Shown here in pieces: positions 57,640-60,653 of a stretch of 60,653 nt of DNA. The stretch is from Candidatus Peribacteraceae bacterium. Its GTDB lineage: Bacteria > Patescibacteriota > Gracilibacteria > Peribacterales > Peribacteraceae. The notes under the pieces were generated by a model. The model saw only the letters and a list, made by a program, of their open reading frames with translations. It was not told the origin of the DNA and ran no database searches. The position numbers and the translations under genes are program-made. The stretch spans positions 1-60,653 of the forward strand of contig JAQTSD010000004.1 in NCBI GenBank assembly GCA_028711445.1. Direction: 5' to 3'. The first letter of the stretch is position 1. Each line of letters opens with the position of its first letter.

Positions 57640-58677
57640 ATGCCCTCTCCTGATCTTACGATTCACTGGCTTTCCGTGCGAGTACGCCTCCTGTGTCTTC
57701 TTGTGCTTCTTGTGGGATCACTGCTTCCGCCCTATGTGCCAAAGGCCGCACTCGCCCCGCAAGAGCTCACGACGGCTGTTCCACAGTTCCTGCTTGTGGA
57801 GGAGGGATTCATCATGAAGTCATCCTCCCTGACCAAGCAGAGTGCACGACGGGCGTATGCCGAGGGCATCGTGCACACTGTGAAAGAGGGTGAGAGCCTG
57901 GAGAAGCTTTCCAACCGTTATGGTATCTCCGTACAGACGATGCGGTGGGTGAACAAGCTTTCCGAAGAGAAGAGCATTCAGCCAGGTGACGAATTACTCA
58001 TCCTTCCCGTCGACGGTGTTCTCCACACGGTTGCGCGCAGTCAGTCGCTCACGCAGATCGCTGAAATCTATGGTATCGATGCGGATGTGATTACCAGGCA
58101 GAACAAGCTCAAGAGCGGGTTCCTTATGGCTGGCCAAGAGCTCATCATCCCGGGTGGCAAGCCTATTGTCGGCAAGCCCAAAGCAATCGCCATGGTTGAG
58201 CCGGACAAGACGGGAAAGGCGCCGTCTGATGCGGGGCCGAAACCCGCGGAGGGCCCCAAGCGGTCGGCGGTGAAGTCCTTCACGAGTGAGCCCACTGCAG
58301 GGGTGCTCCAGAAGCCTTGTTCCGATGTGTGCTTCGTCACGCAGTACTACCATGTGGGGCACTATGCGCTTGATCTGCAGGAGCGGGGAGCCGGGCCAAT
58401 CTATGCGGCCGAAGCAGGCACAATTACGCGTGCCGATTACGGATGGGACGGCGGATATGGCAATGTCATCGAGATCGATCATGGCAATGAACTCATGACA
58501 CTCTATGCACATTGCAAGGAACTCTATGTGAAAGAGGGAGACACGGTGGAGCGCGGGCAGCTCATCGCGTGGATGGGCAACACGGGGCTCGTCTACGGCT
58601 CGACGGGTATTCATGTGCACTTCGAAGTGCGTCTCAAGGGGACGAAGAAAAATCCGCTCTTGTACATACAGGAGTAG
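57640..58677 (+). CDS. LysM-M23 cell-wall peptidase
   Basis: Exported peptidoglycan endopeptidase. 345 residues: signal or anchor helix (about 15-38), two LysM domains (about 75-125 and 127-170), a Pro/Lys linker and an M23 domain (about 225-340) with HYALDL and HVHFEV as zinc motifs. No -10 lies near its ATG; translation probably follows dacF. The last 91 bp, including HVHFEV and the stop, recur exactly at 59974-60064 beyond the next gene. Confidence 0.92.
   Translation: MPSPDLTIHWLSVRVRLLCLLVLLVGSLLPPYVPKAALAPQELTTAVPQFLLVEEGFIMKSSSLTKQSARRAYAEGIVHTVKEGESLEKLSNRYGISVQTMRWVNKLSEEKSIQPGDELLILPVDGVLHTVARSQSLTQIAEIYGIDADVITRQNKLKSGFLMAGQELIIPGGKPIVGKPKAIAMVEPDKTGKAPSDAGPKPAEGPKRSAVKSFTSEPTAGVLQKPCSDVCFVTQYYHVGHYALDLQERGAGPIYAAEAGTITRADYGWDGGYGNVIEIDHGNELMTLYAHCKELYVKEGDTVERGQLIAWMGNTGLVYGSTGIHVHFEVRLKGTKKNPLLYIQE
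58587..58677 (+). repeat. 91-bp direct repeat, copy A (3' end of the LysM-M23 gene)
   Basis: Identical to 59974-60064. Identity starts at GCTCGTCTACGG and stops exactly after the TAG stop codon. The repeats are 1,387 bp apart and bracket the orphan gene at 58758. Confidence 0.95.
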
Positions 58678-58757
58678 AGAGCAAATCCTCTGGTTCCAGG
58701 TGCGATTGGAAGAGGATGAGTACTTGACTAAACGGCGATAGATCGTAAAGTCTTTCT

Positions 58758-59933
58758 ATGCCTCCATCGAGCTTACGTGCTGGCTATTTGGATTATCTCC
58801 ATGGCGAAGCGACTGATCAGTTGGATCAGGCCTTTCGGGGAGAGGACATGCCAGAAGGTTTGGCGTATCGCACGGCCCTGAGAGATGCGATCAACACCTA
58901 CTGCACGCTCTTCGACCGTGCGGCCGAACTCGTTGCACGCTTCGTGGAGACGCTGCCCTACGAGGGGTCTTTCCGGCACCAAGATGCGTTGCTGGCTCTG
59001 ATCATCCTGCAGGAAACGAGAACAGCTCTCGATGAGCTCCTCGCACACGATGCCGAGCTTCGTGGTTCGGTGGTGGGAGAGGTGCGGACCGATGGGCGAA
59101 CGGACAATGAGATCCGTACCGGCTCGCGTGAGTTCGATGAGTATCACGAGATCGACGAAAAGAGGCGGATCGAGCAGGAGCAAGTGCGGAAAGATGCTGA
59201 GCGGGACGCGGATATTCGGTCAAGTTTCTACAGTGGGGCAAACGCCGACCGTGTGGATGAGTCTGTTCACCAAAGTTCGCGAGATGTGCTCGGCGGTCCC
59301 AGGAAGGTCAGTGTCTATTCCTTCGACAAGCCTGCGGAAGGAGATGGCGAATCACCTGCACATGAAGTGGAGCCGAGCCCTCCTCCATCGTCTCCCTCGG
59401 ATACTGCCACTTCGTCGTCCGAGGGGGCTCAGCCGCAAGAGGGCCTTCCGAAGCCATCTCAAGGAGAATCCGCTGCGATGAGGTTCTTCGGTGAACGGCC
59501 GAGGTTCATCGAAATCGATGTCCCTGACTTCAAGGGGGAGGATCCTATCATCGTCTTCAGGCAGGCTTCTCAGTGGCTGGTCGAACAGATCATTGCGGTC
59601 GCCTCGGGGAGTCATCAGCGCGACAGTTTTCCGCGTATCGCCCCGATCATCGACCTCGAGGGAGAGAAGCACACAACCACCGTCGATGCACTGAGAGCGG
59701 TCGCGGAAGACATCCGGGGCAAAGTGAAGAGGCTCCGCCCGCCCATGGGCGATGGGTTGGACCAGCTGCACGACCTGATGGATCACATGCGAACGATTGA
59801 CCCGAACGATCAACGGGGTCTGTACGAGATACTTGGCGAGATGGATCAGATCTTCGGTTCAAAAAAACGAGACGATCCTCCGTGGGAAAAGCCGTGGGAG
59901 GAGGGTGGTTGGCGGGAGGGGAGTGGTGAATGA
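58758..59933 (+). CDS. Orphan protein between the 91-bp repeats
   Basis: Not recognised. 391 residues: helical N-terminal domain (1-115), charged region (115-185), Pro/Ser/Glu-rich disordered linker (about 195-245), helical C-terminal domain (about 250-365) and a Trp/Glu/Lys-rich tail. No signal peptide, membrane segment or recombinase motif. It has its own promoter: TTGACT, 16 nt, then TAAAGT ending 6 nt before ATG. It lies in the segment that separates the two copies of the peptidase 3' end, so it looks like inserted cargo. Confidence 0.6.
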   Translation: MPPSSLRAGYLDYLHGEATDQLDQAFRGEDMPEGLAYRTALRDAINTYCTLFDRAAELVARFVETLPYEGSFRHQDALLALIILQETRTALDELLAHDAELRGSVVGEVRTDGRTDNEIRTGSREFDEYHEIDEKRRIEQEQVRKDAERDADIRSSFYSGANADRVDESVHQSSRDVLGGPRKVSVYSFDKPAEGDGESPAHEVEPSPPPSSPSDTATSSSEGAQPQEGLPKPSQGESAAMRFFGERPRFIEIDVPDFKGEDPIIVFRQASQWLVEQIIAVASGSHQRDSFPRIAPIIDLEGEKHTTTVDALRAVAEDIRGKVKRLRPPMGDGLDQLHDLMDHMRTIDPNDQRGLYEILGEMDQIFGSKKRDDPPWEKPWEEGGWREGSGE

Positions 59934-59973
59934 TGGGGCACAAATCGGGTGTGAAGTATGGTGGATCGATAGT

Positions 59974-60064
59974 GCTCGTCTACGGCTCGACGGGTATTCA
60001 TGTGCACTTCGAAGTGCGTCTCAAGGGGACGAAGAAAAATCCGCTCTTGTACATACAGGAGTAG
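59974..60064 (+). repeat. 91-bp direct repeat, copy B (detached peptidase 3' end)
   Basis: An exact copy of the last 91 bp of the LysM-M23 gene, without an upstream gene body. It encodes about 29 residues, including HVHFEV, then TAG. The DoxX gene ends 16 bp further on, on the opposite strand. Confidence 0.95.
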
Positions 60065-60079
60065 GGCCGCTTGCGCGCT

Positions 60080-60475
60080 TCAAAAGAGTTCCCGCTTAAA
60101 GATCCACCATTCGATGCTCGCGGAGCGCGCACCGTAGACGAAGAGGATCGCGAAGCATGCGACGTAGAGCAGCGCGAGCTCGCCGCGATTCTGGATGGGG
60201 AGCAAACCGTTGCCCATGTGAGCGGTGACGTACGCTCCGATGAGCAGGATGCTGCCGAGCACGGCAACGAGGCGCGTCCAGAAACCCGCAACGAGGGCGA
60301 TGCCACCCAACAGCTCGCATATACCGACGAATCCCATGAATCCCTGTACAGAGAACTGACCGTCAAGCAGGCCGAGCTTCTGCAGCCCGTGCTGGAGGAA
60401 GAGGAGTCCTACGAGGACGCGGAAGAGGAGGTAGAACATGTTTGCGCTTTTGGAGGAGAGTGTGGAGAAGAGCAT
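60080..60475 (-). CDS. DoxX-family membrane protein
   Basis: Small polytopic membrane protein. 131 residues with four membrane segments and the DoxX pattern LLFRVLVGLLFLQHGLQKLG, CELLGGIALVAGFWTRLVAV and HMGNGLL. The family is linked to redox or thiol stress, but its biochemistry is uncertain. ATG at 60475 (22 nt after TACAAT) or at 60439, directly before the first helix, are both possible. Confidence 0.85.
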   Translation of the reverse strand: MLFSTLSSKSANMFYLLFRVLVGLLFLQHGLQKLGLLDGQFSVQGFMGFVGICELLGGIALVAGFWTRLVAVLGSILLIGAYVTAHMGNGLLPIQNRGELALLYVACFAILFVYGARSASIEWWIFKRELF

Positions 60476-60593
60476 GGAAGATGGGGAAGGAGCGTCCATT
60501 GTAAACAAATCAATAGGCCATCGCAGAGGACAATGGAGTTGCCGTCCAGCCCGGTTGGGAAATGCGTTACGAGAACTATTTTGCGGAGCAGAA

Positions 60594-60653
60594 TGGCGGG
60601 GCTGACGGGACTCGAACCCGCGACCTTCCGCGTGACAGGCGGACGCTCTAACC
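60594..60653 (-). tRNA. tRNA-Asp (anticodon GTC), cut by the window edge
   Basis: On the minus strand, anticodon arm TCCGC-CTGTCAC-GCGGA gives GTC. The T arm is GCGGG-TTCGAGT-CCCGT. The 3' acceptor CAGCCCC is followed by discriminator G and encoded CCA (60594-60596). The 5' acceptor strand lies outside the window. Confidence 0.93.

Follow-up and report, generated by a model that had tools for sequence, protein, structure and literature searches.

The 391-amino-acid accessory gene that lies between a LysM/M23 peptidase gene (P) and a DoxX-like gene in an uncultivated dwarf Candidatus Peribacteraceae bacterium is flanked on both sides by exact copies of the last 91 bp of P. The explanation that we favor, with reasonable but far from full confidence, is a one-off, lineage-specific insertion of this gene into the P–DoxX spacer, combined with a recent partial duplication of the 3′ end of P beyond the new gene. 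The stretch analyzed, referred to here as the window, is 60,653 nucleotides of contig JAQTSD010000004.1 (C1 in our numbering of the 1.25-Mb, 45-contig assembly GCA_028711445.1). The initial observation is correct and the insertion, judged by comparison with a congener, is real; what we see is mostly ordinary and does not indicate a new kind of mobile element.

Results

An Exact 91-bp Direct Repeat Flanks the Accessory Gene

The features of the region are collected in Table 1. As the preliminary description had reported, exact copies of the end of P bracket the accessory gene: the two 91-bp blocks form a direct repeat, are 100% identical, lie 1387 bp apart, and occur at just these two places in the assembly. 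No direct repeat in the window is longer; second in length is one of 30 bp at 87% identity. With a chance expectation of about 1e-45 for an exact 91-mer pair, a coincidental origin can be ruled out. When compared with the context of P, the flanks of copy 2 are identical at 6 of 20 bases upstream and 2 of 20 downstream; edges this sharp show that copy 2 is not a decayed second gene.

Table 1. Features of the P–DoxX region (window coordinates)
Feature	Position	Strand	Remarks
LysM/M23 peptidase gene (P)	57640–58677	+	PF01476 and PF01551; last gene of the ftsQ–penicillin-binding protein (PBP)–P block
Copy 1 of the 91-bp repeat	58587–58677	+	Apparent native 3′ end of P, stop codon included
Putative remnant of the native spacer behind P	58678–58697	+	15/20 identical to congener G001; resemblance trails off beyond about 35 bp
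Weak sigma-70-like promoter match (TTGACT-16-TAAAGT)	58724–58751	+	9/12 consensus, 6 bp upstream of the start codon
391-aa accessory gene	58758–59933	+	Intact ORF; full-length homologue in G026
Copy 2 of the 91-bp repeat	59974–60064	+	Apparent displaced duplicate of the 3′ end of P; both edges sharp
Short junction between copy 2 and the DoxX-like gene	60065–60079	+	Lacks the native spacer and the terminator that G001 has here
DoxX-like gene	60080–60508	−	PF07681; convergent with P; right-hand neighbor of P in this genus

The block was also said to end exactly at the stop codon, which is accurate for the identity between the two copies. However, copy 2 and the congener G001 both read TAGGG at the stop, whereas copy 1 reads TAGAG, and with these two additional common bases the duplicated block may run beyond the stop codon. 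The “exact” boundary may then stem from a single later substitution, although this is suggestive only. The near coincidence of the block end with the stop codon is softened by the common TAGGG and receives no explanation from a one-off insertion. We note that the 91 bp fold somewhat better than shuffled versions (z −2.15); a structured RNA was set aside as a candidate, as the sequence is constrained coding sequence.

Copies 1 and 2 differ at 0 of 91 positions (95% upper bound on divergence, 3.2%), and copy 2 shows no evident coding constraint. The corresponding block of the congener has eight differences, all at third positions or at the first position of leucine codons and hence synonymous, while third positions of P are 64% identical (36% divergence) between the window’s species and G001. 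Set against that 36%, complete identity of the copies makes the duplication appear recent relative to the split of the genus, unless gene conversion keeps the copies alike; to this extent, the proposal of a recent event agrees with the comparison.

The Congener Retains an Empty Site

In G001, the sole other genome of the genus that was compared, P is followed by a 117-bp spacer containing a strong hairpin and T-run (terminator) and then by DoxX. This is the empty site that the preliminary description had suggested looking for among relatives. No accessory gene or second piece of P was present beside P in the P loci of 29 relatives. Taken together, the empty site in G001 and the absence beside P in these relatives lead us to regard the accessory gene as an insertion in the lineage of the window’s species.

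The flanking spacers suggest which copy is the older. The 20 bases behind copy 1 resemble the G001 spacer (anchored binomial p 6e-6, gapped shuffle p 0.0025), whereas the bases behind copy 2 show no significant match to the start and end of that spacer (p 0.67, 0.81, 0.31). Given this native-like flank behind copy 1 and not behind copy 2, an argument drawn over about 35 bp and from a single congener, we take copy 1 as the likely original end of P, with copy 2 as a displaced duplicate. No counterpart of the terminator-like hairpin in the G001 spacer (locus L010, 2533–2649) was found in window positions 58678–60080. Farther to the right, the contig ends inside a minus-strand tRNA gene (60597–60653), and resemblance to the congener breaks off shortly ahead of this gene, at window position 60570 (L010 3138); past DoxX, the two species therefore differ.

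P itself is well conserved. Matches to it are present in every genome of the family that was searched, the ftsQ–PBP–P order is kept in 30 of 30 loci, and the P protein of G001 is 95% identical to that of the window. The gene downstream of P varies in nearly all genera, matching in only 3 pairs among the 30 loci, and of the loci examined, only those of this genus have P and DoxX adjacent. This variability may simply mark an operon boundary, the comparison having included no control operon. A search 7–19 kb downstream of P in 21 relatives found no second copy of the P end, so the variability there is not accompanied by duplicated gene ends. Relatives were likewise checked for a complete second peptidase gene near P, named beforehand as the sign of a simple duplication, and none was found.

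The Accessory Gene Is a Patchily Distributed Gene of the Family

The 391-aa protein matches no Pfam, NCBIfam, PHROGs, or PADLOC model, which is in keeping with its earlier designation as an orphan. That designation must be qualified: a full-length homologue, 32% identical, exists in another genome of the same family (G026, named Candidatus Peribacteria isolate AH-03may19-31 in the genome-contig scan), from which we conclude that the ORF is a real gene. The two proteins have a common layout of an N-terminal helical region, a variable middle, and a conserved C-terminus. The distribution is patchy, with the gene detected in 2 of 353 genomes of the class (E below 1e-4), namely, the window’s genome and G026, and G026 is the sole source of a high-confidence homologue in the genome collections. 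A profile built from these two sequences additionally recovered G022 as a distant match and G012 as a weak one, and the N-terminal part of the protein has only weak matches to short genes on another contig of the window’s genome (G000:C6, E about 2e-4) and in the congener (G001:C7, 1e-3). No relatives were found in phage, plasmid, and viral collections. In G026, the homologue and P lie on different contigs and no convincing repeat flanks the homologue.

The GC content of the accessory gene (58%; GC3 64%) is like that of its neighbors, with nothing in base composition to suggest a foreign origin; its codon usage is the poorest fit to the neighbors of nine genes compared (0.038 vs 0.050–0.197). 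The structure model is poor (mean pLDDT 45), with helices predicted at low confidence, and the middle region is probably disordered. From composition and predicted helices, our best guess is a non-enzymatic, lineage-specific helical protein. Profile matches of 50–60 residues to RecA fusion chains and to a designed protein among solved structures were rejected as chance (best E 0.0015, no stretch significant alone). The gene had also been described as promoter-equipped. One consensus match is indeed present (Table 1), but at 9 of 12 positions it is near chance level, the random expectation for the scanned region being 0.7 matches of this quality.

Recombinases Encoded in the Genome

No recombinase was found in the unit, as had been stated, and its ends carry no terminal inverted repeats. 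A transposon was considered and rejected, given the lack of terminal inverted repeats, a 91-bp repeat too long for a target duplication, and a sole substantial ORF without a transposase match. The genome encodes one tyrosine recombinase, with a counterpart of near-equal score in the congener, and it looks like the chromosomal Xer protein. An extra tyrosine integrase that could act in trans was not found in the genome, which speaks against the earlier suggestion that the unit is moved in trans. Two large serine recombinases are encoded on other contigs, at L085 (G000:C10, 3053–4447) and L086 (G000:C28, 2867–4573), one of them beside an uncharacterized 250-aa gene; these two loci are possibly small integrated elements.

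Discussion

How the Arrangement May Have Arisen

In the one-off insertion that we favor, the accessory gene would have entered the non-conserved spacer behind the conserved ftsQ–PBP–P block by ordinary homologous or illegitimate recombination, removing the distal half of the P–DoxX spacer, terminator included. The 91-bp copy would have arisen at the repair junction, either through a template switch or through tandem duplication and subsequent deletion. Consistent with this course of events, copy 1 is native-like on both sides and copy 2 has the P context on neither, and exact local duplications are also seen elsewhere in the sampled parts of the genome. A donor sequence of the insert was not found. 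On this account, a gene-free strain would show P followed by AGAGCAAATCC and the terminator; GGCCGCTTGCGCGC directly after P in such a strain would mean that the native flank is the one behind copy 2, contrary to the one-off insertion.

The preliminary description had seen in the repeat the mark of target-gene restoration, whereby a small element carrying a copy of the P 3′ end integrates site-specifically into P and displaces the host’s own end as copy 2, its recombinase acting in trans or having been lost since. Identity beginning within P and running as far as the stop codon, the empty site of the congener, and the two large serine recombinases on other contigs would all suit such an integration, which would have the P of a gene-free strain run directly into GGCCGCTTGCG, the native flank behind copy 2. 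What decides against it in our view is that restoration predicts the native spacer behind copy 2, while the native-like spacer sits behind copy 1. The event has no parallel at P in the 21 relatives searched, the only tyrosine recombinase is the Xer-like protein matched at near-equal score in the congener, and neither the window nor the other sampled stretches (together 241 kb) revealed a second such unit. The duplicated cores left by large serine recombinases are normally very short, a few identical bases and not 91. We consider this integration decidedly unlikely. The native context at copy 1 also fits with a tandem duplication of a unit consisting of the P end, the spacer, and a pre-existing accessory gene, after which the second spacer and gene were deleted and the repeat was left as a later amplification scar. 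The sharp left edge of copy 2 and the presence of another tandem duplication elsewhere in the genome speak for this origin, and of the alternatives raised earlier, a local-duplication scar does fit better than target restoration. As a full scenario, however, it requires a pair of events, and the later one must happen to stop at the stop codon or slightly beyond it. Between copy 2 and DoxX, no leftover of another spacer or gene was seen. We rate this origin as unlikely.

There is also a slim chance that the arrangement is an artefact of a strain mixture or of a mis-joined repeat. The assembly is fragmented into 45 contigs, a contig end, itself broken within a tRNA, is no more than 2.1 kb from the feature, and 91 bp falls within the k-mer range of metagenome assemblers. 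Against this, the junction of the insert with copy 2 should derive from reads, P and DoxX are truly adjacent in the congener, and completeness and contamination of the assembly are put at 99.73% and 0.46%. Finally, one can imagine a recombinase-less cassette of Peribacteria that uses copies of the 3′ end of a conserved gene as exchange sites, is moved in trans by one of the large serine recombinases of the host genome or by natural transformation, and is lost via its repeats; we find this highly improbable.

Relation to Known Systems

The region invites comparison with several known systems. According to the definition quoted in PMC3082526, the minimal mobile elements of Neisseria consist of an accessory whole gene between two conserved neighbors, without a mobility gene. 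Here too, an accessory whole gene sits between two neighbors kept in the genus, and no mobility gene accompanies it. The differences are that we see one occupied and one empty state, in different species, and that a duplicated gene end lies outside the definition as quoted there. The unit resembles a minimal mobile element in kind, by analogy. Tyrosine-integrase islands integrate at gene 3′ ends, for example, those of tRNA genes or icd, with restoration of the target. They share with the window two copies of a gene 3′ end enclosing foreign DNA, with the target gene left whole, but differ in that here there is no integrase, the site is not reused, and the native flank follows the wrong copy. 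Template-switching repair yields gene duplications with short junctions as well as templated insertions, and copy 2, a sharply bounded, exact copy of sequence close by at a junction that has been rearranged, resembles these products. Nothing that we observed conflicts with this likeness.

Homology of 23 bp suffices for RecA-type recombination in E. coli, as cited in PMC12455944. Recombination of this type between the 91-bp repeats would probably excise the gene together with one copy and leave P intact, and the gene would be easily lost. If the one-off insertion is the right explanation, the window offers a clean, young example of streamlined Peribacteria acquiring an accessory gene where a conserved cell-envelope operon ends, with gain and possible loss proceeding without mobile-element machinery. 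It would also illustrate that a gene end repeated around foreign DNA does not by itself prove site-specific integration; the copy that has the native flank decides.

Other Duplications in the Genome

The search for sister units and duplications covered 241 kb in all, comprising the window and other stretches of the genome, and within it no second gene bracketed by gene-end copies was recognized. Local duplications in this sample include short tandem repeats. At L048 (G000:C2, 4485–4699), a 98-bp exact tandem duplication extends over a 19-bp tRNA end and the adjoining region, resulting in three copies of the tRNA end. At L060 (G000:C9, 3686–6619 and 10517–14134), two large paralogous genes 6.8 kb apart have near-identical starts and diverging later parts, a pattern as after gene conversion or recent duplication.
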